A stretch of DNA of 38,678 bases, taken from NCBI GenBank assembly GCA_902790495.1, contig CADASK010000009.1:1-38678 (forward strand). Reading direction: 5' to 3'. Source of the stretch: an uncultured Eubacteriales bacterium (GTDB lineage Bacteria; Bacillota; Clostridia; Christensenellales; Aristaeellaceae). Positions 8,240 to 34,231 of the stretch are shown piece after piece. Both the position numbers and the translations under genes were made by a program. The notes under the pieces were generated by a model that saw only the letters and a list, made by a program, of their open reading frames with translations, had not been told where the DNA came from and did not search any database. Positions within the stretch are counted from its first letter, which is position 1. Each line of letters starts with the position of its first letter.

Positions 8240-10453
8240 TTGGAAACCATCGAGGTGATGATTTCGGGCATTGTGTACCGCAATGACGAGAACGGCTACA
8301 CGGTGATGAGCTGCCAGATGGGCCGCAGGGAGATCACGGCGGTCGGCGCGCTGCCCGGGCTGCGGCGCGGGGAGCAGGTGCGCCTCCACGGCGACTGGGT
8401 GGATCACCCGCAGTACGGCATGCAGTTCAAGATCATGGGCTTCGAGCTGGTGATGCCCACGACGGTGCTGGGCATCGAGCGGTATCTCGCCGGCGCGGGC
8501 ATCCGGGGCATCAAGGCCAGCACAGCCCATAGCATCGTGCACCGCTTCGGCGAGGAGACGCTGACTATCCTCAGCGAGCATCCGGAGCGGCTGATGGAGA
8601 TCCCCGGCATCGGCCGGAAAAAGTACGTCGCCATCGCCGAGAGCTTCCGCGAAAAGCAGCAGGAGCGCGGGGCCGTCATCTTCCTGCAGAGCTACGGCAT
8701 CCCGCCCAAGTTAGCGGTGAAGATCAGCAAGCTCTACGGCGACAGGACGGAGACGGTCGTCCGGGAAAATCCCTACAGGCTGTGCGAGGACATCGAGGGC
8801 GTCGGCTTCCAGACCGCGGACCGCATCGGCGCAGCGATGGGCGTGGCGCAGGACAGCGATTTCCGCCTGCGGGCGGCCGTGAAATACGTGCTGCAGGAGG
8901 CCGCCGCCGGCAGCGGCCACTGCTACCTGCCCAGAACCCTGCTGGAGCAGAAGACCCAGGAGCTGCTGCGGGTGGACATCGAGGGCATCCGCGCCCAGAT
9001 CACGGCGCTGCTGCTGGAGCGGGAGCTGACCTCGGAGGCGGGCGAGGAGGACGACCGCATCTACCTGCGCGCCTACGCCCGGGCCGAGAAGGAGGTGGCC
9101 CAGCGACTGATGGAGCTGATGGCCGCCCTGCCGGCCCAAAGCCATCCCGGGCTGGCGGCCCGCATCGACCGCTTCGAGCGGCGCAGGGGCATCACCTTCA
9201 GCCAGCTGCAGCGGGAGGCGCTGGTGCGGGCGATGGACACGGGTGTCTTCGTGGTGACGGGCGGCCCCGGCACCGGCAAGACGACGCTGATCCAGTGTCT
9301 GATCGAACAGATGCAGACCGAGGGCGACGTGCTGCTGTGCGCGCCGACGGGCCGGGCGGCCAAGCGCATGTCCGAGGCCAGCGGCATGGAGAGCCGCACG
9401 ATCCACCGCCTGCTGGAATACAGCGGCGAGATGGGCGGCTTTTCCAGGGACGAGGAGAATCCGCTGGAGGCCTCCTGCGTGATCGTGGACGAGGTGTCCA
9501 TGGTCGACCTGATGCTGATGCGCTCGCTGCTCAGGGCCATCGAGCCGGGCACGCGGCTGGTGCTGGTGGGGGACAGCGACCAGCTGCCAAGCGTCGGCGC
9601 GGGCAACGTGCTGGGCGACATCCTGCACAGCGGTGTGATTCCGGCGGTCTGCCTGCACGACATCTTCCGCCAGAGCGAGACGAGCCGCATCGTGGTCAAC
9701 GCCCACCGCATCAACGAGGGCGAGATGCCCCTGCTCAACGAGAAGGGTACCGACTTCTTCTTTGAGCGCACGGACTCGGCGATGGCCACGTCGGAGACGG
9801 TGGTGCGCCTGGTGACCCAGCGCCTGCCGGGCTTCCTGAAGATGAAGCCGGAGGAGCGGGTGCGGCGCATCCAGGTGCTCGCGCCGATGCGAAAGAGCGA
9901 GTGCGGGGTCGAGGTGATCAACCTCCGCCTGCAGCAAGCGCTGAATCCGCCCGCGCCCGGCAAGCCGACGCTGACCTGGGGCGACAGCGTGTTCCGCCTG
10001 GGTGATAAGGTGATGCAGACCCACAACGACTACAACCTCGCCTGGCGGCAGATCCGGGACGGCGAGGAGGGCTCAGGCGTCTTCAATGGGGACGTGGGCT
10101 TCATCACACGGGTGGATGAGGCGGAGAGCGAATTGACCGTGCTTTTCGACGAGGAGCGGGAGGCGGTCTACAGCGCCCAACAGCTGGAAAACCTGGAGCT
10201 GGCCTACTGCCTGTCGGTGCACAAGAGCCAGGGCAGCGAGTTCCCGGTGGTGGTGATGCCGGTCTTTGGCGGGCCGCAGATCCTGCTGACGCGCAACCTC
10301 TTCTACACGGCCCTGACCCGCGCGAAGGCCCTGGTGGTGCTGGTGGGCCGCGAGGAGACGATCCGCATGATGGTGGAGAACAACCAGATTCTCAGACGCT
10401 GGACGGCCCTGGACGAGAGGCTGCGAAAGACCGCGGAGATGATGATGCCATGA
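8240..10453 (+). CDS. recD2: ATP-dependent DNA helicase RecD2
   Basis: A 737-residue superfamily 1B 5'-3' DNA helicase acting in DNA repair and replication-fork maintenance in bacteria that lack RecBC. The N-terminal domain has the family start VMISGIVYRNDENGYTV. A helix-hairpin-helix stretch (IPGIGRKKY) sits near residue 121. Walker A GGPGTGKTT is near 340, Walker B IVDEVSMVD near 414, GDSDQLPSVGAGNVLGDIL near 451 and the C-terminal UvrD-like motif SVHKSQGSEF near 658. TTG 8240 is taken as start because GGGAGG lies 7 bases upstream and the product has the usual RecD2 length; the open frame upstream runs antisense through other genes. Its stop overlaps the comF start by four bases. Confidence 0.95.
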   Translation: METIEVMISGIVYRNDENGYTVMSCQMGRREITAVGALPGLRRGEQVRLHGDWVDHPQYGMQFKIMGFELVMPTTVLGIERYLAGAGIRGIKASTAHSIVHRFGEETLTILSEHPERLMEIPGIGRKKYVAIAESFREKQQERGAVIFLQSYGIPPKLAVKISKLYGDRTETVVRENPYRLCEDIEGVGFQTADRIGAAMGVAQDSDFRLRAAVKYVLQEAAAGSGHCYLPRTLLEQKTQELLRVDIEGIRAQITALLLERELTSEAGEEDDRIYLRAYARAEKEVAQRLMELMAALPAQSHPGLAARIDRFERRRGITFSQLQREALVRAMDTGVFVVTGGPGTGKTTLIQCLIEQMQTEGDVLLCAPTGRAAKRMSEASGMESRTIHRLLEYSGEMGGFSRDEENPLEASCVIVDEVSMVDLMLMRSLLRAIEPGTRLVLVGDSDQLPSVGAGNVLGDILHSGVIPAVCLHDIFRQSETSRIVVNAHRINEGEMPLLNEKGTDFFFERTDSAMATSETVVRLVTQRLPGFLKMKPEERVRRIQVLAPMRKSECGVEVINLRLQQALNPPAPGKPTLTWGDSVFRLGDKVMQTHNDYNLAWRQIRDGEEGSGVFNGDVGFITRVDEAESELTVLFDEEREAVYSAQQLENLELAYCLSVHKSQGSEFPVVVMPVFGGPQILLTRNLFYTALTRAKALVVLVGREETIRMMVENNQILRRWTALDERLRKTAEMMMP

Positions 10454-23884: not shown

Positions 23885-24679
23885 ATGCTGAAGATGGAGC
23901 ATCTGAGCAAGGTTTTCAATCCCGGCACGGTGGACGCCAAGCTGGCCCTGGACGACCTGAGCCTCGACGTGCGCGATGGGGATTTCATCTCCATCATCGG
24001 CGCGAACGGTGCGGGCAAATCCACCCTCTTCAACGCCATCGGCGGCAGCTTCCTGGTGGACTCGGGGCGCATCCTGCTGGGCGATGAGGACATCACCCTG
24101 AAGGCGGAGCACAGGCGCGCCAAGGACATCGGGCGACTGTTCCAGGACCCGATGCGCGGCACGGCCCCGGAGATGAGCATCGAGGAGAACCTGGCCCTGG
24201 CCGCGGGCAGCGGCGGCTGGCTCTCGGTGATGCGCAAGAGCGACCGCAGGCAGTTCCGCGACAAACTGGCGCTGCTGGACATGGGCCTGGAGGATCGCAT
24301 GACCCAGCCGGTGGGCCTGCTCTCCGGCGGCCAGCGCCAGGCTTTGACCCTGCTGATGGCCACCTACCACATCCCGAAGGTGCTGCTGCTGGACGAACAC
24401 ACGGCGGCCCTGGACCCCGGCACGGCGGAGAAGGTGCTCAACCTGACGCGCAGCATCGTGGGGGAGAATCACATCACCTGCCTGATGGTCACCCACAACA
24501 TGCAGACCGCCCTGGATCTGGGCAACCGCACCATCATGATGGACAACGGCCGCGTGATCTACGACGTGGAGGGCGAGAAACGCAGCAGGCTGACCATCCA
24601 TGACCTGACGGAGCGCTTCCGCGTGGCCTCGGGTCATCAGATGAACAACGACCGCATGCTGCTCGGCGTGGCAGATTGA
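23885..24679 (+). CDS. trpZ: ABC transporter ATP-binding protein, TrpZ-like
   Basis: A 264-residue ATPase of the same importer. Walker A GANGAGKST is at 39-47, Q-loop in LFQDPMRGTAPEMSIEENL near 85-103, signature LSGGQRQ at 146-152, Walker B VLLLDEHTAALDP at 166-178 and H-loop in MVTHNM. The gene starts one base after the permease stop and closes the operon before a bidirectional terminator. The three genes plus the T-box make a complete importer without a separate regulator gene. Confidence 0.9.
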   Translation: MLKMEHLSKVFNPGTVDAKLALDDLSLDVRDGDFISIIGANGAGKSTLFNAIGGSFLVDSGRILLGDEDITLKAEHRRAKDIGRLFQDPMRGTAPEMSIEENLALAAGSGGWLSVMRKSDRRQFRDKLALLDMGLEDRMTQPVGLLSGGQRQALTLLMATYHIPKVLLLDEHTAALDPGTAEKVLNLTRSIVGENHITCLMVTHNMQTALDLGNRTIMMDNGRVIYDVEGEKRSRLTIHDLTERFRVASGHQMNNDRMLLGVAD

Positions 24680-24690
24680 ATCAAACAATA

Positions 24691-24738
24691 AAAGACGAAT
24701 GAGCTTCCTCTCAACAGGGAAAACTCATTCGTCTTTTT
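24691..24738. terminator. Bidirectional terminator between trpZ and the Y-family polymerase gene
   Basis: AAAGACGAATGAG (24691-24703) pairs with CTCATTCGTCTTT (24724-24736), 13 pairs. T-runs follow on both strands. The polymerase stop codon at 24725-24727 lies inside the right arm, so the stem serves two convergent operons. Confidence 0.9.
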
Positions 24739-26179
24739 CGTCGTCCTTCAGCTCGGCCTGATGCCCGCCGATCTGCCGGCTGCGCTCCATCGCGGTGGCG
24801 CCCTGCTGCAGGTTCATCCCCTTGATGATGGCGTTCTTGCCGTAGCGGTTCTTGATCCGCAGCATGGCCTCCTGCACGCGGCGCTCCTTCTGCTCCGCCT
24901 CGCGGTCGGCCTCGGTGACCTCCGGCGGCGCGAAGAGGCTCAGCTGCTCGCCGCCGGCGTCCTCCGCCTCGTCGCGGCCGGGCATGATGAAGTCGAGGTA
25001 CAATCGGCGCACGGGCAGGCGGCGATCCACGGTGCGGTCGAAGATCGCAAGCGTCGCGGCGATCAGTCTCCTGGCTGAGGCGGTCGGGGAGACCGCGCCT
25101 GAGGCGTCCGTCAGGCGCTGCACGCCGTGGGCGGGCTTGGGAATGCGGCCGGCATAGCGGCTCTCCACCATCTCGCCCCGGTAGTCCTCCGGTGGCTTGT
25201 CGTAGACGACGGTCAGCGAGACAGAGGCCGCGGTCAGCTGCTTGTCCACCAGCTCCAGCGCCATCTGGTCGGCCATCTCCTGGGTGACGATCCGCGCCGT
25301 GCCAAAGGGATAGGGCTCGGGCAGTACCTGTCCCTGGGAGATGGAGCGGGCCTCCGGCTCGAAGCTCTTGATGTCCGCCATGGTGCAGGTCTCGATGCCC
25401 CAGGCGTGATCGATCAGCAGCTCCGCGTCCACGCCGAACTCGCGGTAGAGCGTGTCCGCGCTGTAGAGGCTCATGCGGGCGACGTCGCCCATGGTGTACA
25501 GCCCGTAGCGCTCCAGGCGCCGGGCAATGCCCCGGCCGGTGCGCCAGAAATCGGTGATGGGCCGATGGGGCCACAGCTCCTCGCGGAAGCGGCGCTCGTC
25601 CAGCTCCGCGATGCGCACGCCGTCGCTGTCCGCCTCCACATGCTTGGCCAGGATGTCCATGGCGATCTTCGCCAGGTAGAGGTTGGTGCCGATGCCGCCG
25701 GTGGCGGTGATGCCGGTCTCCCGCAGGATGGTCTGGATCACCCGGCGCACCAGCTCATGCGGGGCGCAGCGGTACAGGCGCAGGTACTTCGTCAGGTCGA
25801 TCATGACCTCGTCGATGGAATAGACGTGGATATCCTCCGGGGCGAAGTAGCGCAGGTAGAGATCATAGATGTGGCGGCTGGTCTCCATGTAGACCCGCAT
25901 CCGCGGCGGAGCGACGATGTAGTCCAGCTTCCTTCCGGTCTGGGCCTCCACCTCGCGGGCCTTCTCCACCACCTCGAACAGGCGGCAGCGGCCGGGCAGG
26001 CCGTAGGCCTTCATCGCCGGGGAGACGGCCAGGCAGATGGTCTTCTCTGTGCGGCTCTCGTCGGCCACCACCAGCCGGGCGGTCAGCGGGTCCAGCCCGC
26101 GGGCCACGCACTCCACCGAGGCGTAGAAGCTCTTCAGGTCGATGGCGGCAAACCAGGTGCCGTCGCCGCGCGTGCTCAT
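24725..26179 (-). CDS. Y-family DNA polymerase (UmuC/ImpB/UvrX-like)
   Basis: A 484-residue translesion polymerase. Metal-binding acidic residues are D14 in AAIDLKSFYASVEC and D123-E124 in YSIDEVMIDLT. GIGTNLYLAKIAMDILAKH is the next palm/finger motif. QLSLF at about 412-416 is a standard beta-clamp binding motif. The C-terminal IKNRYGKNAIIKGMNLQQGA and IGGHQA are typical of the Firmicutes UvrX/UmuC-like group and absent from classical DinB. ATG 26179 overlaps the decarboxylase stop by four bases. No LexA-type box lies directly before it. Its presence in a phosphonate operon is unexpected; a functional link cannot be read from the sequence. Confidence 0.9.
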   Translation of the reverse strand: MSTRGDGTWFAAIDLKSFYASVECVARGLDPLTARLVVADESRTEKTICLAVSPAMKAYGLPGRCRLFEVVEKAREVEAQTGRKLDYIVAPPRMRVYMETSRHIYDLYLRYFAPEDIHVYSIDEVMIDLTKYLRLYRCAPHELVRRVIQTILRETGITATGGIGTNLYLAKIAMDILAKHVEADSDGVRIAELDERRFREELWPHRPITDFWRTGRGIARRLERYGLYTMGDVARMSLYSADTLYREFGVDAELLIDHAWGIETCTMADIKSFEPEARSISQGQVLPEPYPFGTARIVTQEMADQMALELVDKQLTAASVSLTVVYDKPPEDYRGEMVESRYAGRIPKPAHGVQRLTDASGAVSPTASARRLIAATLAIFDRTVDRRLPVRRLYLDFIMPGRDEAEDAGGEQLSLFAPPEVTEADREAEQKERRVQEAMLRIKNRYGKNAIIKGMNLQQGATAMERSRQIGGHQAELKDDEKDE

Positions 26180-27315
26180 GCTTCCGCTCCGTCCGCCGGT
26201 ACGCCGAGATGGCGCATGAAGGCGGCCTTGTTCTCCTGGGGCGTGGTGGTGGGCCGGCCCAGATCGGCGCGCGCGCCGAGGGCGCACTTGATCTCGATGA
26301 GGGTCAGCTCCCGCGCGGCGGCGGTCTCCGACAGGGCGGCATCAAGGGCTTCGGCCCCGCTGACGCTGCAGGCGCGATCGTAGCCGCAGGCCTTCGCGAG
26401 GGCGGGCACGTCCAGGGCGGTCACGGCCGTCGGCATGCCGCCGACCGTCTCGTGGGCCTCGTTGTTGAGCACGATGTGCACGAAATTCTCCGGGTGATGG
26501 CGGCCGATCACCGCCATCGCGCCCATGTGCATCAGCAGCGCGCCGTCGCCGTCGACGCACCACACGCGGCGCTCGGGCCGCTGCAGGGCGATGCCCAGGG
26601 CGATGGAGCTGGCGTGGCCCATGGAACCCACCGTGATGAAATCCCGCTCATGGCCCTGACCGGCGGCGGCGCGCAGCTCGTACAGCTCGCGGCTGGCCTT
26701 GCCGGTGGTGCAGACGATGGGATCATCCCCGGTGTGGGCGGCGATGTGGCGCAGGGCGTTCTCCCGGGTGAGCGTGTAGGCGTTGTGGTAGACGGCCTTG
26801 CTGTCGCAGGTGAGGGCGCCCTTGCGGACGACGAAGGCGGCTTGACGTCCCTGGGCGAGCAGTGGCCGGAAGCGGCGCATGGCTTCCGCCACGTCCTCCT
26901 CCGTGGTCTCCGGGCTGATGACAAAGCTCTCGATGCCCATGTCCTCCAGCAGGCGGAGGGTCACCTCGCCCTGGTAGATGTGCTGGGGCTCGTCATGCAC
27001 GCCGGGCTCGCCGCGCCAGCCGACGATGAAGAGCATCGGGATGGCGTAAACCTTCTCGTGCAGCAGGCTGGCGACGGGGTTGATGATGTTGCCCTCGCCG
27101 CTGTTCTGCATATACACCACGGGCACGCGGCCTGTGGCGAGATGGTACCCGGCCGCGAGGGCTGTGCAGTTCCCCTCGTTGGCGGCGATGACGTGGTGCT
27201 TCGGATCGATGCCCCAGCGGTTCATCAGGCAGTCGCACAGCGACCTGAGCTGGCTGTCCGGCACGCCGGTGTAGAAATCCGCGCCGAGGATGTCCATCAA
27301 TGCTTCCGCGCGCAT
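26176..27315 (-). CDS. ppd: Phosphonopyruvate decarboxylase
   Basis: A 379-residue thiamine-diphosphate enzyme converting phosphonopyruvate to phosphonoacetaldehyde, the step that pulls the unfavourable PEP mutase reaction forward. The cofactor-binding motif runs from GDG at 256-258 to LNN at 283-285, and E47 in ANEGNC is the conserved catalytic-site Glu. TGVPDSQL and MQNSGEGN in the first half, and GRPTTTPQENKAAF near the end, are characteristic of phosphonopyruvate decarboxylases rather than sulfopyruvate or acetolactate enzymes. The gene starts 6 bases after the reductase stop and overlaps the polymerase start. It lies with PEP mutase in one cluster, which makes the assignment firm. Confidence 0.92.
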   Translation of the reverse strand: MRAEALMDILGADFYTGVPDSQLRSLCDCLMNRWGIDPKHHVIAANEGNCTALAAGYHLATGRVPVVYMQNSGEGNIINPVASLLHEKVYAIPMLFIVGWRGEPGVHDEPQHIYQGEVTLRLLEDMGIESFVISPETTEEDVAEAMRRFRPLLAQGRQAAFVVRKGALTCDSKAVYHNAYTLTRENALRHIAAHTGDDPIVCTTGKASRELYELRAAAGQGHERDFITVGSMGHASSIALGIALQRPERRVWCVDGDGALLMHMGAMAVIGRHHPENFVHIVLNNEAHETVGGMPTAVTALDVPALAKACGYDRACSVSGAEALDAALSETAAARELTLIEIKCALGARADLGRPTTTPQENKAAFMRHLGVPADGAEA

Positions 27316-27321
27316 GGGCTG

Positions 27322-28461
27322 TCAATCCACCTTTTCCGTGTTTTCAGATAGAATCTCGTGGTAGAGGGCTTCGATGTCTTCGGCTGTCAGGGCGACGGGA
27401 TGGTTCTTCAGCCGCTCAGGGTTCACCGAGGCGCACAGGACGGGGAAGTCCTCCGCCTTCGCCCGGGGCACGGGAAGCCCCAGCTCGTCGTACAGATCGC
27501 TGAAGCGCTGCGCCGCGGCCTCGGCGGTGCTGCAGCCCATCGCGGCGGCCAGGCGGTCGAAGGCGTCCTTCAGGTAGGTCTCGCCCCGGGGATCGATGCA
27601 GCGATCGAGGTGCCGCAGCGTCCAGGGCCAGAGCTTCCGGTTGACCAGAGCGGCCGCGTGGCCGTGGGCCGCGCCGTAGAGGCTCGTGATCTTGTAGCAC
27701 ATGGCGTGGCCGGCCGTGGTCTTGGTCAGGTTGATGGCCTGGCCCGCCTTGTGGGCCGCCCAGAGCATGCCGCTGTTGGCCTCGGGCTCATTGCACAGGT
27801 AACCGTCCTGATAGCGCAGCACGTCGCCGATGGCCTCAGCGGCATAGCGCTGGCTCTCCTCCGTGCTGTTCACGTTCCAGAAGGACTCGACGGCGTGGCT
27901 CAGGGCGTCCAGCATGGTGGCGCGCCGCTGGTAGTCCGGCAGGGTGTCCAGCACGCTGGCGTCCATCAGCACAGCCTCGGGCAGGATGCTGTCGTGGGCG
28001 ACGGACTGCTTGACACTGTTCAGGTAGATGACCGCGAAGCGCGTGGCCTCGGAGCCGGTGCCCGCGGTGGTCGGCACGGCGAGGAGGGGAATGCGGTTCG
28101 CCGTGGCCTCGCGCTTCACGAAGGGGACATCGCCCGGCTCCATGTCCGCGTAGAGCTTCACGCACTTGGCCACGTCCATGGCGGAGCCGCCGCCGACCGC
28201 CAGCACGGCGTCACAGCCGGCCTCGCGGAAGAGGCGCACGCCGGCCTCGATGGATGTATAGCGCGGGTTGGGCTGCAGATCGTTGAAAGATGTCACCGCG
28301 ATGCCGCAGGTCTCCGGCAGGCGCTCGATGACAGACTGCACCTGCAGGTGCGGATAGGCGCCGTCGTGCACCACGAGGAGATGACGCACGCCGATGGCGC
28401 GCAGATAGGCGGTCAGCTCGCTGTACCCGTTTTCGGGGGAAAGAATCTTCTGCTCACCCAT
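27322..28461 (-). CDS. Iron-containing alcohol dehydrogenase, predicted phosphonoacetaldehyde reductase
   Basis: A 379-residue group III (Fe-ADH) dehydrogenase. The NAD(P)-binding motif GGGSAMDVAK is at 90-99, PTTAGTGSEAT at 130-140, and iron ligands include D185 and H189 in MLDALSHAVES with two more histidines in TTAGHAMCY and AAHGHAAAL. Placement between PEP mutase and phosphonopyruvate decarboxylase predicts reduction of phosphonoacetaldehyde to 2-hydroxyethylphosphonate, as in known clusters with PhpC/FomC-type enzymes. ATG 28461 follows the fusion-gene stop by five bases, with AGAGGAG upstream; the open frame upstream is out-of-frame coding. No 2-aminoethylphosphonate transaminase is present in the window. 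Confidence 0.87.
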   Translation of the reverse strand: MGEQKILSPENGYSELTAYLRAIGVRHLLVVHDGAYPHLQVQSVIERLPETCGIAVTSFNDLQPNPRYTSIEAGVRLFREAGCDAVLAVGGGSAMDVAKCVKLYADMEPGDVPFVKREATANRIPLLAVPTTAGTGSEATRFAVIYLNSVKQSVAHDSILPEAVLMDASVLDTLPDYQRRATMLDALSHAVESFWNVNSTEESQRYAAEAIGDVLRYQDGYLCNEPEANSGMLWAAHKAGQAINLTKTTAGHAMCYKITSLYGAAHGHAAALVNRKLWPWTLRHLDRCIDPRGETYLKDAFDRLAAAMGCSTAEAAAQRFSDLYDELGLPVPRAKAEDFPVLCASVNPERLKNHPVALTAEDIEALYHEILSENTEKVD

Positions 28462-28466
28462 GGGCT

Positions 28467-30473
28467 TCACTCCTCTGGGATCAGGGTAATGATGTCCTTG
28501 ATGGACATGCACTTGTCGTCGCACTCCTTGGCGCGGTGGCAGCGGAGAATGGTCTCGGCCGCGTCGCGCATGGCCGGAAAGCCCGTGCGGGTCAGGTGAT
28601 TGGCGTAGATGATGATGTTCGCGCCGAGCGCCTTCCACTCCTCCTCGGTCACGGTGTTGAAGGAGGTGGGCACCAGCACGACGGGCGTCACGGCGTCCTC
28701 CGCGCGGAAGCGCCGCAGGAATTCAATGATCTCCGCGGGATCCTTCTTGCGGCTGTGGATCATGATGGCGTCGGCCCCGGCGTCCCGGAAGGCGAAGGCG
28801 CGCGTCAGGGCGTCCTCCAGTCCCTTCTCGAGGATGAGGCTCTCGATGCGGGCGCAGATCATGAAGTCGCGGCTCTTCTGGGCCGCCTTGCCCGCGCGGA
28901 TCTTCTCGCAGAAGTGCTCGATGCTGTCCTGGGTCTGGGGCACGTCGGTGCCGAAGAGGCTGTTCTTTTTCAGCCCGGTCTTGTCCTCGATGATGACCAT
29001 GGAGACGCCCATGCGCTCGAGGCTCCGCACCGTGTAGACAAAGTGCTCCACCAGGCCGCCGGTGTCCCCGTCAAAGATGACCGGCTTGGTGGTGACCTCC
29101 ATGATGTCGTCCACCGTGCGGAAGCGGCTGGTCATGTCCACCAGCTCGATGTCGGGCTTGCCCTTGGCCGTGGAGTCGCACAGGGAGGAAACCCACATGG
29201 CGTCAAACTGGCGGGAGCCGCCGTTCTCGTGCACCACGGTCTTCTCCACAATCAGGCCGGTGATGCCGCTGTGAGCTTCCAGGGCGGTGACGAGGCCCTT
29301 CATCTCCAGCACGCGCCTCAGGCGGGAGCGGCGGATATCGGGCAGGGAGAGCTCGGCCCGGGCGCGCTTCTCCAGCGCGGCGTATTTGGGATCGGAGGCG
29401 TAGGGGTATTCCACCAGCTTTCCGCCGTAGGAGGCCAGCACGGCCTGCACCTCGTCGCGGATGGGCTTCTGGTAGCCGGTGACCCAGTCGTCGCCGTGCA
29501 CCACGATATCGGGCCGGTAGCGCTCCAGATTTTCGCGGTAGGAGAGGGTGCGCTGCTCCACCACGCGGCTCACGCCCGCCAGCTGGGAGAACATGGCCCG
29601 GCGCTCGGAGGCGGGCACCAGGGGAAAACGCTTGTAGGAGGCCACGGCCTCGTCCGACAGCACGCCGATGGTGAGCCGGCCCAGCCGCGCGGCCCTGCGG
29701 ATGAGGGCGATGTGGCCGCTGTGGAGGATGTCCGTGGCGAAGCACATGTACACGGTGCGGCGCTCCACCTCGTGCAGCTGGGCGGAGACGTGGCTGAGAT
29801 CCTCCGGGTTGTCGATCTCCGCGCAGAGCCGGGCGCCCACGTCCAGGGGCATAAGGTGCATCCCGCCGCTGACCTCGTTGAGGGCCTTCTCGGCGTAGCA
29901 GCGGTCGTCCCCGGCCTCGCAGAAGCGGTGGATGGCCTCGAGCCACACGGCCGCGTCGGCCCGGGTCAGCTTGTAGAGGGGCTGAGCGGCCAGGGCATGG
30001 TCGAAGAACTCGATGCCGACCTTGCGGATGCGGCCATCCTCGATCACAGCCTTGAAATCCTTCTGGGGCAGCGGCACGGCGGAGGAGACCGCCATGCAGG
30101 AGGCCTCGGAGGCCAGGACGTCGTCCAGCACGGTGTTCTCAAAGACGAGGTCGCCGTGCATCAGCAGCAGGTCGTCATCCAGCAGATCGCGGGCGAGGTC
30201 GATGCTGTAGATATAGTTGGTCTCGCGGAAGCGCGGGTTGTGGACGAAGTGGATCGTCAGCGGCAGGTCGAGGGTGGCGCAGTACGCCCGCAGCACATCC
30301 TCCATCAGGCCGGTGGTGATCACCGCCTCGCGGATGCCGACGCCGCAGAGCTGGCGCAGCTGGCGGGAGAGGATGGTTTCCGTGGGGCTGATCTCCGTCA
30401 TGCACTTGGGATGCTCGGAGGTCAGCACGCCCATCCGCGTCCCGAGACCGGAGTTGAGGATCAGCGCTTTCAT
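28467..30473 (-). CDS. pepM: Three-domain phosphonate enzyme: nucleotidyltransferase + cytidylyltransferase-like + PEP mutase
   Basis: A 668-residue fusion. Residues 1-235 form a LicC/sugar-phosphate nucleotidyltransferase domain (NSGLGTRMG at 7-15, MHGDLVF at 105-111, EIDNPEDL at 219-226). Residues 238-375 form a TagD-like cytidylyltransferase domain with HSGH at 251-254. Residues 388-668 form phosphoenolpyruvate mutase: MWVSSLCDSTAKGKPD at 426-441, DGDTGG at 468-473 and the diagnostic EDK-x5-NS motif at 496-505. PEP mutase makes the C-P bond of phosphonopyruvate; the other domains probably activate the finished phosphonate as a CMP ester. ATG 30473 overlaps the SCIFF maturase stop by four bases. 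Confidence 0.9.
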   Translation of the reverse strand: MKALILNSGLGTRMGVLTSEHPKCMTEISPTETILSRQLRQLCGVGIREAVITTGLMEDVLRAYCATLDLPLTIHFVHNPRFRETNYIYSIDLARDLLDDDLLLMHGDLVFENTVLDDVLASEASCMAVSSAVPLPQKDFKAVIEDGRIRKVGIEFFDHALAAQPLYKLTRADAAVWLEAIHRFCEAGDDRCYAEKALNEVSGGMHLMPLDVGARLCAEIDNPEDLSHVSAQLHEVERRTVYMCFATDILHSGHIALIRRAARLGRLTIGVLSDEAVASYKRFPLVPASERRAMFSQLAGVSRVVEQRTLSYRENLERYRPDIVVHGDDWVTGYQKPIRDEVQAVLASYGGKLVEYPYASDPKYAALEKRARAELSLPDIRRSRLRRVLEMKGLVTALEAHSGITGLIVEKTVVHENGGSRQFDAMWVSSLCDSTAKGKPDIELVDMTSRFRTVDDIMEVTTKPVIFDGDTGGLVEHFVYTVRSLERMGVSMVIIEDKTGLKKNSLFGTDVPQTQDSIEHFCEKIRAGKAAQKSRDFMICARIESLILEKGLEDALTRAFAFRDAGADAIMIHSRKKDPAEIIEFLRRFRAEDAVTPVVLVPTSFNTVTEEEWKALGANIIIYANHLTRTGFPAMRDAAETILRCHRAKECDDKCMSIKDIITLIPEE

Positions 30474-31864
30474 GCCTCTTGCACCTCCCGCATTTCCTCT
30501 TCCTTCACCTTCATCATGATGGCGCACTCGATGCGCTTGCGGAACAGCTCGCAGCCAGGCTTGTACACGCCCTGGATGGAGCCGGAGGCGTGGTAAGCGT
30601 TGGCCGCGCAGCCGCCGGAGCAGTACAGCCGCGCCCAGCAGTCGTTGCACTCGGGCCGGGCGTAGGCGTTGCAGGTGCGGAACTGCTCGCGCAGCTCCGT
30701 GTTCGTGACGCCCTGCCAGATGTCGCCCAGCTTGTAGCTCTCCTCGCCCACAAACTGGTGGCAGGGGTAGAGGTCGCCCCAGGGGGTCACGGCCATGTAC
30801 TCCGTGCCGGAGCCGCAGCCGGAGATGCGCTTGTAGATGCAGGGGCCGCCGGTCAGGTCGATCATGTAGTGGTAGAAGGTGATGGGATGGCCCTCGGCCT
30901 TGCGGCGCAGCATATCCTTGGCAAGGATCTCGTACTGCTCCTTCACGATCTCGATGTCCTCGGGCGTGAGAGCGGCGGGATCATCCGGCGCGCAGACCAC
31001 CGGCTCCATGCTCAGCTCGGTGAAGCCGAGGTCGGCCATGTGGAAGACATCCTTCGTGAAGTCCGGGTTGCGGTGGGTGAAGGTGCCGCGCATGTAGTAC
31101 TTCGTACCGCCGCGGGCGTCCACCAGCTTCTTAAACTTGGGCACGATGCGGTCATAGCTGCCGTTGCCCGCGTAGTCCACGCGCAGGGCGTCATGGATCT
31201 CCTTGCGGCCGTCCAGGCTCAGCACGACGTTGCTCATCTCCCGGTTGCAGAAGTCGATCACGTCGTCGTCGATCAGCATGCCGTTGGTGGTCAGGGTGAA
31301 GCGGAAGTTCTTGCCGCGCTCCTTCTCCACAGAGCGGGCGTAGCACACCAGGTCCTTCACCACCTGCCAGTTCATCAGGGGCTCGCCGCCGAAGAAGTCG
31401 ACCTCGAGGTTGCGGCGGGTGCCGGAGTGCTCCATCAGGAAATCCAGCGCGCGCTTGCCGACCTCGAAGGACATCAGCGCCCGGTCGCCGTGATACTTGC
31501 CCTGGCTGGCGAAGCAGTAGGAGCAGTTGAGGTTGCAGGTGTGGGCCACGTGGAGGCACAGCGCCTTCACCACGTCGCCGGAGCGCTCCTTCAGCACGCC
31601 CGCCATGGGCGCGAAGGTGTCCGGGGTGAAGAGCTTGCCGGCCTTCTCCAGGGCGGCCACATCGGCGACGCAGGCGCGCACGTCCTCCTCGGTCACGTCG
31701 GGGCGGCCTGCGTATTTTGCCAGCATCTCCGCCACGATCTCGTCCTCCGTGCGCTCCTTGTACAGGGCGATGATGTCATAGGCGACCTCGTCCACGGCAT
31801 GGATGGATCCGGAGCAGGAGTCGAGCACGATGTTGCACCCGTTGAGCTTGTATTGATGAACCAT
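30470..31864 (-). CDS. scfB: SCIFF peptide maturase, radical SAM/SPASM thioether-forming enzyme
   Basis: A 464-residue radical SAM enzyme that makes thioether cross-links in the Cys-rich SCIFF peptide. Residues 1-90 form a RiPP-recognition-type N-terminal domain. CNLNCSYC (C110, C114, C117) binds the SAM cluster. The SPASM region holds further cysteines: SGCGSGTEYMAVTPWGDLYPCH, then CNAYARPECNDCWARLYCSGGC (in parts) and PGCELF, for auxiliary clusters. The characterised C. thermocellum homologue is CteB. The start ATG has GGAGG 10 bases upstream. The precursor gene lies 190 bases upstream, separated by a terminator hairpin; the stop overlaps the phosphonate fusion gene by four bases. Confidence 0.95.
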   Translation of the reverse strand: MVHQYKLNGCNIVLDSCSGSIHAVDEVAYDIIALYKERTEDEIVAEMLAKYAGRPDVTEEDVRACVADVAALEKAGKLFTPDTFAPMAGVLKERSGDVVKALCLHVAHTCNLNCSYCFASQGKYHGDRALMSFEVGKRALDFLMEHSGTRRNLEVDFFGGEPLMNWQVVKDLVCYARSVEKERGKNFRFTLTTNGMLIDDDVIDFCNREMSNVVLSLDGRKEIHDALRVDYAGNGSYDRIVPKFKKLVDARGGTKYYMRGTFTHRNPDFTKDVFHMADLGFTELSMEPVVCAPDDPAALTPEDIEIVKEQYEILAKDMLRRKAEGHPITFYHYMIDLTGGPCIYKRISGCGSGTEYMAVTPWGDLYPCHQFVGEESYKLGDIWQGVTNTELREQFRTCNAYARPECNDCWARLYCSGGCAANAYHASGSIQGVYKPGCELFRKRIECAIMMKVKEEEMREVQEA

Positions 31865-31971
31865 GCGAGAAAGCCTCCGTTATGGAATGATAGGCAGGCG
31901 GGCGCGGAATCCTCCGCTGGCCGCCGATATGCAGCAAAGAAAAGAACAGGGAAGAATACGAGAAGAATACG

Positions 31972-32001
31972 AAAAAAGTGCCGCCTGAGAATGCAGGCGG
32001 C
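31972..32001 (-). terminator. Intrinsic terminator between SCIFF precursor and maturase
   Basis: On the minus strand GCCGCCTG (32001-31994) and CAGGCGGC (31987-31980) form a perfect 8-bp stem with a 6-base loop, followed by AC and TTTTTT. It lies 53 bases after the precursor stop and 108 bases before the maturase start. Partial read-through would give much more precursor than maturase mRNA. The rest of the gap has no clear promoter. Confidence 0.85.
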
Positions 32002-32054
32002 AGCTTTCTGTCAACAATTGACTGCCTCAGGCGCTGTCCGTTGCTGAGCGGTCC

Positions 32055-32201
32055 TTATTTCGCGGTGTTCTCGCACTGCTGATTGGCAACGCCGCAGCTG
32101 GTCTTGCAGGCGGACTGGCAGGAGGTCTGGCATTCGCCGCAGCCACCGTTCTTCGCGCTGGCGCACAGATCCCGCGTCTCCAGGGTCTTGATCCTGGTCA
32201 T
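32055..32201 (-). CDS. scfA: SCIFF (six-cysteines-in-forty-five) RiPP precursor peptide
   Basis: A 48-residue peptide, too short for most gene callers. It starts MTRIKTLETRDLCASAKNGG and continues with the hallmark CGECQTSCQSACKTSC (residues 21-36), then GVANQQCENTAK. Six cysteines (21, 24, 28, 32, 36, 43) are the canonical set; C13 in the leader part is an additional one. The ribosome site AGGAGA lies about 10 bases upstream of ATG 32201. A consensus promoter sits at 32255-32283. The maturase follows downstream. The role of SCIFF in Clostridia is unknown. Confidence 0.95.
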   Translation of the reverse strand: MTRIKTLETRDLCASAKNGGCGECQTSCQSACKTSCGVANQQCENTAK

Positions 32202-32254
32202 GTTCCATCTCTCCTATTCTCGTGGAATTGGACGGTTGCCCGCCCGACTTACCA

Positions 32255-32283
32255 AGTATACCATAGCGGAAAAGGGAAGTCAA
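32255..32283 (-). promoter_or_regulatory. Promoter of the SCIFF/phosphonate operon
   Basis: Minus strand TTGACT (32283-32278), 17-base spacer ending TGG, TATACT (32260-32255). It is the only strong promoter seen upstream of the whole minus-strand block down to 24725. Confidence 0.85.
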
Positions 32284-32338
32284 GGAAAGAATCGCCGTTT
32301 GAACCAGACCGGGGCGGCGTGCGGCTGAAATCTCCTCG

Positions 32339-32367
32339 TTGCATTTCCGGCGCGCTTGCGCTATAAT
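32339..32367 (+). promoter_or_regulatory. Promoter of the aminopeptidase P operon
   Basis: TTGCAT (32339-32344), 17-base spacer, TATAAT (32362-32367). The leader then holds a 10-bp hairpin, CCGAAGTCGG/CCGGCTTCGG (about 32388-32419), before the AGGAGG of the first gene. It is divergent from the SCIFF promoter about 55 bases away. Confidence 0.85.
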
Positions 32368-32443
32368 AGAACCGCAGTCGAATTGTACCGAAGTCGGTTC
32401 CAAACCGGTCCGGCTTCGGATGAAACAGGAGGTTGTATGTACC

Positions 32444-34231
32444 ATGCGGGAACAACTCATCAAGCTTCGTGAGGCGATGCAGCGCCACGGCGTGGATATC
32501 TGCTACATCCCCACGGACGATTTCCACTCCTCGGAATATGTCGGGAGCTACTTCAAGGCCCGCGCCTATGTGTCCGGCTTCACCGGCAGCGCGGGCACCC
32601 TGATCGTGACGAAGGACTGGGCCGGCCTGTGGACCGACGGCCGGTATTTCCTGCAGGCCTCCATGCAGCTGGAGGGGTCGGGCATCGAGCTGTGCAAGAT
32701 GGGCGAGCCCGGCGTGCCCACCATCGAGGAGTACCTGGAGAAGGAGCTGGGCAAGGGAACGAAGCTCGCCTTCGACGGGCGGACGGTCAACACCAAGCAG
32801 TACCAGCACTTCAAGGAACTGGCCGAAAAGAAGGGCGCCGCCCTGGTGACGGATGTGGATCTGGCCGGGGAGATCTGGACGGATCGCCCAGCGCTCTCCG
32901 CGGAGCCTGTGTTTGAGTTCAGCGCCGAGCTGGTGGGCAAAAGCCGCGCGGATAAGATGGCGGACGTGCGCGAGGCCCTGAAGAAGGAGGGCGCGGACTG
33001 CCTGATTCTCGCGTCCCTGATGGACATCTGCTGGCTGATGAACATCCGCGGCAACGACGTCGCCTGCACGCCGGTGGTGCTGTCCTTCGCAGCAGTGACG
33101 GCGGACGAGGCGGTGCTGTTCATCAACCCCGACGTCCTGTCGGAGGAGATCCGCGCCCATCTGAGCGCCGACGGCGTGACCTTCCAGCCCTATGAAAACA
33201 TCTACCGCTATGTGCGCGCGCTGCCCTCCATGTGCACGGTGATGATGAACCTGCATGTGGTCAACAGCGCCATCTACACCGCCGTCCCGGCGAACGTGAC
33301 GGTGCTCGACCGCAAGGATCCCACCGAGCTGCCCAAGGCGGCCAAGAATCCGACTGAAGTCGAGAATATGCGCAAGGCCCACATCAAGGACGGCGTCGCG
33401 GTGACCCGCCTCATGTACTGGCTGAAGCATCAGATCGGCAAGGAGCCGATGACGGAGCTGTCCGTGGCGGAGAAGCTCGAAGGCCTGCGCAGGGAGCAGG
33501 AGGGCTACATCGAGCCGAGCTTCAGCCCCATCGTCGGCTGGGGTCCCCACGGCGCGATCATCCACTACAGCGCCACCGAGGAGAGCAACGTGCCGGTGCA
33601 GCCCTCCTCCTTCCTGCTGGCGGATACGGGCGGACACTACATGGAGGGCACGACGGACATCACCCGCACCTTCGCCATGGGCCCGCTGACGGACGAGGAG
33701 AAGAAATTCTACACCATGGTGCTCCGCTCCCACCTGCGCCTGGGCAACGTGCACTTCCGCTACGGCTGCACCGGCGCGAACCTGGACTACGCGGCCCGCG
33801 AGCCCTTCTGGGCGGAAAACCTGGACTACAACCACGGCACCGGCCACGGCGTGGGCTACGTGCTGGGCGTGCACGAGGGGCCGCAGGCCTTCCGCTGGCG
33901 GAAGACGGACAAGTCGTCCACCGCGGTGCTGGAGCCCGGCATGATCACCAGCGACGAGCCGGGCATCTACCTGGAGGGCAAATTCGGCGTGCGGCTGGAG
34001 AACCTGACGGTGGTGGTGGAGGGCGTGACCAACAGCTACGGCCGCTTCCTCCATCTGGAATACCTTACCATGGTGCCCTTCGACCTGGACGCCATCGACT
34101 TGAGTCTCATGAGCCCGGAGGAGATTCGGCTGCTGAACGCCTATCACGCCCAGGTGCGGGAGAAGCTGCTGCCTTACTTCTCGGGCGACGAGGCGGAATG
34201 GCTCAAATACGCGACCCGCGAGGTCGGCTGA
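32444..34231 (+). CDS. Xaa-Pro aminopeptidase (M24B family)
   Basis: A 595-residue cytoplasmic metallopeptidase that removes N-terminal residues before proline, three-domain long form. Two creatinase-like N-terminal domains (IPTDDFHSSEYVGSYFKAR; DICWLMNIRGNDV) precede the M24 domain with metal ligands in LADTGGHYMEGTTDITRTF, HGTGHGVGY, TSDEPGIYLEG and VRLENL. The length fits the eukaryote-like, approximately 600-residue aminopeptidase P group frequent in Clostridia. ATG 32444 has AGGAGG 11 bases upstream and matches the family N-terminus MREQLIKLREAM. First gene of a four-gene plus-strand set. Confidence 0.93.
   Translation: MREQLIKLREAMQRHGVDICYIPTDDFHSSEYVGSYFKARAYVSGFTGSAGTLIVTKDWAGLWTDGRYFLQASMQLEGSGIELCKMGEPGVPTIEEYLEKELGKGTKLAFDGRTVNTKQYQHFKELAEKKGAALVTDVDLAGEIWTDRPALSAEPVFEFSAELVGKSRADKMADVREALKKEGADCLILASLMDICWLMNIRGNDVACTPVVLSFAAVTADEAVLFINPDVLSEEIRAHLSADGVTFQPYENIYRYVRALPSMCTVMMNLHVVNSAIYTAVPANVTVLDRKDPTELPKAAKNPTEVENMRKAHIKDGVAVTRLMYWLKHQIGKEPMTELSVAEKLEGLRREQEGYIEPSFSPIVGWGPHGAIIHYSATEESNVPVQPSSFLLADTGGHYMEGTTDITRTFAMGPLTDEEKKFYTMVLRSHLRLGNVHFRYGCTGANLDYAAREPFWAENLDYNHGTGHGVGYVLGVHEGPQAFRWRKTDKSSTAVLEPGMITSDEPGIYLEGKFGVRLENLTVVVEGVTNSYGRFLHLEYLTMVPFDLDAIDLSLMSPEEIRLLNAYHAQVREKLLPYFSGDEAEWLKYATREVG

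Follow-up and report, generated by a model that had tools for sequence, protein, structure and literature searches.

Phosphoenolpyruvate (PEP) mutases (PEPM) fused to nucleotidyltransferases are found in phosphonyl tailoring (Pnt) clusters. In the consulted parts of one survey, the triple fusion PF12804-PF01467-PEPM accounts for 42 proteins, or 2.8% of PEP mutases (Rice 2019, PMC6697681). The same parts name LicD-like phosphotransferases among the neighbors and state that Fom1 makes CMP-hydroxyethylphosphonate (PMC6697681). For SCIFF peptides, which are widespread, a role in quorum sensing has been reported (Chen 2020, as cited in the consulted parts of PMC8102284 and PMC8326336), and the statement in a preliminary description of the present locus that their function is unknown is thus outdated. 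Here, we describe a window of 38,678 nucleotides, i.e., the whole stretch of DNA that was analyzed (contig CADASK010000009.1 of an uncultured Eubacteriales bacterium, hereafter genome G000). In this window, the genes for a SCIFF precursor and its maturase, ScfB, are followed by a phosphonate cassette and by a Y-family DNA polymerase gene. The string is most likely a composite operon that is specific to this lineage and was produced by rearrangement. Since related species keep the SCIFF and phosphonate genes apart, it looks more like the product of a local rearrangement of the genome than like a shared pathway.

The six genes follow one another in the same orientation on the minus strand, between positions 32201 and 24725. 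The first (positions 32055 to 32201) encodes a SCIFF precursor peptide of 48 amino acids with seven cysteines (TIGR03973, 77.9 bits, cutoff 50; PF13165), and the second (scfB, 30470 to 31864) encodes the SCIFF radical SAM/SPASM maturase (TIGR03974, 761 bits, cutoff 425; PDB 5wgg, E value of 7.6e-162). Both curated profile cutoffs were exceeded, which places the pair in the SCIFF ranthipeptide system by sequence. The third gene (28467 to 30473) encodes a triple fusion, recognized by profile matches, structure database matches, and motifs. It comprises an N-terminal MobA/LicC-like nucleoside triphosphate transferase domain, a cytidylyltransferase-like domain (residues ~236 to 360), and a PEP mutase domain (residues 385 to 667). 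The LicC/PntC nucleotidyltransferase motif GXG(T/S)RX4-8PK is present as GLGTRMGVLTSEHPK at residue 9, PF12804 and PF01467 were both matched, and an HSGH motif was found. The cytidylyltransferase domain matched PDB 5x3d (E value of 3.7e-39, 125 residues aligned). The PEP mutase domain scored 395.9 bits with TIGR02320 (cutoff 319.55) and carries the catalytic motif EDKXXXXXNS, as defined in the consulted parts of PMC6697681, in the form EDKTGLKKNS at residue 496.

The next gene (27322 to 28461) encodes an iron-dependent alcohol dehydrogenase (Fe-ADH; PF00465). Its score with the best phosphonate model, TIGR03405, was 159.2 bits (cutoff 423.7), so that the family match is to Fe-ADH in general, and it is from position only that we infer a phosphonoacetaldehyde reductase. 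Relatives of this gene occur at 78 of 89 PEPM loci, of which at least four duplicate another entry of the set (L059/L090, L006/L089, L012/L091, and L025/L092). A phosphonopyruvate decarboxylase gene (26176 to 27315; TIGR03297, 457 bits, cutoff 312.5) and the polymerase gene (24725 to 26179; PF00817 [IMS] and PF11799) complete the string. The scfB and PEPM genes overlap by ATGA at 30473 to 30470, the gaps on either side of the Fe-ADH gene measure 5 bases (to PEPM) and 6 bases (to the decarboxylase), and the decarboxylase and polymerase genes overlap by ATGA at 26179 to 26176. These junctions read as the preliminary description gave them, and its gene identities were borne out by profiles for the SCIFF precursor, maturase, PEP mutase fusion, decarboxylase, and polymerase; its reductase was recovered just as a general Fe-ADH.

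To find similar arrangements, the PEPM fusion was searched against a collection of ~85,000 species genomes, and the best 80 of 574 matching loci were kept, with as much as 10 kb of flank on contigs that were long enough. SCIFF/ScfB genes stood beside PEPM only at locus L002 among these best 80 of 574 loci. L002 belongs to genome G138 (same coordinates in the genus search). Among 12 genomes of the genus, PEPM was found in 10, ScfB (at least 81% identity) in 9, and both in 8. Linkage was seen in G000 and G138; in the other six, the two genes lie on different contigs. Confinement of the linkage to one strain, which the preliminary description had set as a refutation, does not hold, since G138 has the same string; the two species count as one evolutionary event.

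Wider sampling gave a similar picture. At profile cutoffs, a 200-genome sample of the family contained 60 PEPM-positive genomes, 154 ScfB-positive genomes, and 49 genomes with both (Fisher P value of 0.36); the number of genomes with both is that expected of independent genes. Together with 29 more genomes from a 391-genome sample of the class, 78 genomes had both genes over the cutoffs. In 3 of them (G000, G138, and G149) the genes lie within 10 kb of each other, and in 2 of these 3 they are adjacent; in 8 they share a contig at a distance of at least 64 kb, and in 67 they are on different contigs. Linkage within 10 kb was expected by chance in ~0.6 genomes (probability of two or more, 0.11). 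The same-contig counts, like the LicD counts given below, were read from match tables, and PEPM-positive family genomes absent from the ScfB listing were searched anew.

These counts bear on the proposal, made in the preliminary description, that the SCIFF peptide is a carrier, signal, or tailoring target of the phosphonate. Adjacency alone speaks for such a shared pathway. It is disfavored by the co-occurrence of ScfB and PEPM, which is not above expectation, by the separation of the genes in six of the eight genus members that have both, and by the SCIFF peptide itself, which is identical in G000 and G138 and whose core is unchanged relative to unlinked genus members. PEPM instead tracks a LicD gene, as described below. 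We therefore regard a shared pathway as highly improbable, and the other proposal of the same description, that phosphonate genes were placed behind a housekeeping peptide locus, fits the data. That three units found apart in relatives are joined here shows how weakly the close spacing of genes in a single genome argues for a common pathway.

The SCIFF gene is separated from scfB by 190 nt (32054 to 31865). A consensus scan for sigma-70-like and terminator-like sites covered positions 24500 to 32600. On the minus strand, it found a promoter-like site 5' of the SCIFF gene (32255 to 32283; TTGACT-N17-TATACT, with TG preceding the second hexamer) and another sigma-70-like site behind the polymerase gene (24714 to 24685). 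Two such sites, against 1.2 expected in shuffled sequences, are not significant by themselves. The scan detected no minus-strand sigma-70-like site between the SCIFF promoter-like site and the end of the polymerase gene. An intrinsic-terminator-like hairpin (31979 to 32002, minus strand) was detected in the gap, with a 9-bp stem (7 G-C pairs) followed by CTTTTTT. The scanned region contained five terminator-like sites against 3.5 expected, i.e., no excess in this region alone. The scan of this region by itself is no proof of a terminator; the evidence lies in the recurrence of the element across loci.

For this comparison, 50 loci were assembled: the window, L002, eight from the genus and G149, and 20 each picked from the ScfB tables of the family and the class (besides the window, L002, L082 to L088, L097, and L102 to L141). 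A strict SCIFF motif parsed 25 of the 50 loci; a replacement motif parsed 48, with L085 and L124 dropped. The pattern TTGACN-16/18-TANNNT occurred within 200 nt 5' of the SCIFF gene at 20 of the 25 loci parsed from the 50 given, a count to which no chance expectation for the pattern is attached. A terminator-like element was present in the SCIFF-ScfB gap at 44 of the 48 parsed loci (window included); the corresponding numbers were 1.8 for mononucleotide shuffles of those gaps and 3.1 for length-matched stretches drawn at random from these loci. The hairpin sequence is not the same from locus to locus. The SCIFF gene is thus, as a rule, trailed by a presumably leaky terminator, and the phosphonate genes of the window stand behind such an element. 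The element is a likely device for making the peptide in excess of the enzyme and would explain how such an excess can come about. Among the literature matches listed, none joined SCIFF, a terminator, and the maturase. The number of SCIFF cysteines also varied over the 48 loci, with seven (not six) in the window and in 28 loci overall (window included) and six in the other 20.

With a terminator-like element at 44 of 48 loci, the SCIFF and phosphonate genes cannot simply be taken as a single transcript. The single operon of the preliminary description holds for gene order and for the genes from scfB to the polymerase, with the SCIFF gene set apart by the gap and its terminator-like element; likewise, its claim that no new promoter intervenes agrees with the consensus scan and overlooked that element. 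In a variant of the composite operon, not exclusive of it, two transcription units would abut, with scfB and the downstream genes starting after the terminator, independently of the SCIFF promoter. The recurrence of the element is consistent with this variant, as is genome G099, in which the SCIFF gene does not share a contig with ScfB. The consensus scan found no sigma-70-like site in the SCIFF-scfB gap, however, and we consider the variant possible but doubtful. In G099, the contigs concerned are C21 and C70, and the ScfB locus, L085, has no SCIFF gene in front.

A transferase that could use a CMP-phosphonate was not found in the same cluster: the one LicD match in the genome lies on another contig (C3), outside the window, and other transferase families were not searched. 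The G000 LicD gene (L143, positions 8718 to 9467) has a metallo-hydrolase gene on one side and two transketolase halves, followed by a sugar transferase gene, on the other; the order of this neighborhood is the same in G138 and G074. Relatives of this LicD (E value of ≤1e-40) were found in 49 of the 200 family genomes, namely, in 41 of 60 PEPM-positive and 8 of 140 PEPM-negative genomes (odds ratio of 36, with no correction for phylogeny). At an identity of at least 64%, there were 39 of the 49 (33 PEPM positive and 6 PEPM negative). LicD family members of any kind were present in 49 of 60 and 52 of 140 genomes of this sample, respectively (P value of 5e-9). Within the genus, as represented in the family sample, nine PEPM-positive members had a LicD relative and two PEPM-negative members, one of them 66% complete, had none (G200 lies outside the sample). 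LicD and glycosyl transferase clusters recur at 23 and 11 of the 89 PEPM loci, respectively (Pfam assignment on one representative each). The tie between LicD and PEPM, uncorrected for phylogeny, is much stronger than that between PEPM and ScfB. The distant LicD, which tracks the cassette, is a candidate phosphonyl transferase that lends itself to testing. Judging from its domains and gene order, the cassette probably yields CMP-2-hydroxyethylphosphonate, with which a glycan would be decorated.

The surroundings of scfB vary within the genus. Nine genus scfB loci were compared, including L085 (ScfB without SCIFF) and some with flanks of <6 kb at contig ends. A gene was shared within 6 kb of scfB only by G000 and G138 among the 36 pairs; after five loci of a second genus were added, 6 of 91 pairs shared a gene near scfB. 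ORF (open reading frame) calls were antisense in places, and tblastn matches were therefore used for the string. Of the 10 other genus members, 9 carry polymerase relatives on contigs different from those of ScfB and PEPM, and the tenth (G188) had no match. G000 and G138 share the right flank of the string (genes for ABC transporter components, a TrpX-like protein, and a Rho-like protein; TrpX scored under its profile cutoff and Rho was recognized by eye), whereas the left flank differs. PEPM, ScfB, and SCIFF are each encoded once in G000; duplication was rejected as the origin of the string on these single copies, and relocation fits better than copying. Most simply, the peptide, phosphonate, and polymerase units were brought together once.

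A foreign island was also rejected, with the GC content of 1-kb bins at 0.61 to 0.70 over the string versus 0.57 to 0.69 in the rest of the window. No tRNA genes and no Rfam matches at the gathering threshold were found in the window. Vertical descent of PEPM in the genus did not hold, since the 89-row PEPM tree needs six changes for the genus label, five of them forced by starred branches; transfer or loss has therefore occurred, and the tree gives no source. Between G000 and G138, nonsynonymous divergence (dN) is well under synonymous divergence (dS) in all six genes, with no amino acid change in SCIFF. The dS of the SCIFF gene is only 0.067, versus 0.6 to 1.1 for the other five genes; the gene is short, and the contrast is large.

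Several points weigh against the composite operon made by rearrangement. The string and its overlaps are kept in two species at a dS of 0.6 to 1.1 (five larger genes), so that the string is no very recent accident and may have been selected as a unit. The consensus scan shows no promoter-like site 5' of the phosphonate genes. The assemblies are fragmented, with the two genes on different contigs in 67 of the 78 genomes, and linkage across a contig end is possible. The terminator scanner is lenient, and 4 of the 48 gaps (L121, L126, L127, and L140) have no element. For LicD, the counts lack a phylogeny correction, and 10 of the 49 matches reach just 38 to 49% identity. Finally, the PEPM of G149 is nearest the linked pair in the tree (SH-aLRT [Shimodaira-Hasegawa-like approximate likelihood ratio test] value of 94, not starred) and also lies 6.1 kb from SCIFF.

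Genome G149 was rejected as a second case of the linkage. Its PEPM is upstream and SCIFF is 6.1 kb downstream, with five ORFs between them and no match for the decarboxylase (Ppd) or the reductase. When 12 of its neighbor genes were compared with the surroundings of PEPM and ScfB in four further members of the G149 genus, no match reached 35% identity; one further ORF, behind the G149 ScfB, is common to G026. For the PEPM fusions of this second genus (L097, L147, L148, L150, and L152; genomes G149, G185, G195, G112, and G026), the fetched stretches held no reductase or decarboxylase match of at least 35% identity. As a separate observation, aminopeptidase (M24) and TetR genes adjoin SCIFF in the window, and their relatives stand directly before the PEPM cassette of G074 (L090, the same region as L059), either by coincidence or as a trace of an earlier order.

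The persistence of the string also speaks for regulatory coupling, in which the gene order would be retained because surface phosphonate production is thereby tied to SCIFF expression (e.g., to cell density), with no chemical link. At L002 the ATGA overlaps persist and both short gaps measure 3 nt; the absence of a promoter-like site before PEPM in the consensus scan and the quorum-sensing action reported for SCIFF peptides (Chen 2020, as cited in the consulted parts of PMC8102284) point the same way. However, only two of the eight genus members with both genes have them linked, the terminator-like element after SCIFF should uncouple the levels, and the polymerase is carried along without an evident part. 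On balance, regulatory coupling seems unlikely. Surface phosphonylation under the control of the SCIFF locus, such that a peptide reported to act in cell-density signaling and a surface carbon-phosphorus decoration are made together in this lineage, is quite unlikely. Two species are too few to tell whether the string was kept for its usefulness.

We thus favor a composite operon, which could have arisen and could work as follows. SCIFF and scfB would form a small unit in which a promoter, the peptide gene, a leaky terminator, and the maturase gene follow one another, with neighbors that are readily exchanged in the genus. In an ancestor of the two species, this unit would have come to lie in front of the phosphonate cassette and the polymerase gene. 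Transcripts would start at the SCIFF promoter and many would stop at the terminator; read-through, or a weak undetected start, would express scfB and the downstream genes at a lower, coupled level. The phosphonate cassette would work on its own. Its PEP mutase domain would convert PEP to phosphonopyruvate, the decarboxylase would convert phosphonopyruvate to phosphonoacetaldehyde, the Fe-ADH would reduce the latter to 2-hydroxyethylphosphonate, and the cytidylyltransferase domain would form CMP-2-hydroxyethylphosphonate. A LicD-type transferase encoded elsewhere may use this CMP adduct to decorate a surface glycan.

Compared with known systems, the first two genes resemble the SCIFF/ScfB ranthipeptide system (TIGR03973 and TIGR03974), in that both proteins are well over the cutoffs and ScfB matches PDB 5wgg ("Radical SAM domain protein") over its full length. 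We take this structure to be the maturase CteB. The difference is that phosphonate and polymerase genes stand behind scfB in this lineage. The fusion resembles Fom1 of fosfomycin biosynthesis in its cytidylyltransferase domain, which aligned with PDB 5x3d ("Phosphoenolpyruvate phosphomutase"), presumably a domain of Fom1; unlike Fom1, it has an extra LicC-like domain in front. The consulted parts of the Pnt cluster account do not mention SCIFF (PMC6697681). With the Pnt clusters, as described in those parts, the window shares a triple fusion of the same makeup, and it differs from them in having a putative reductase in place of the 2-aminoethylphosphonate transaminase and its LicD gene on another contig.

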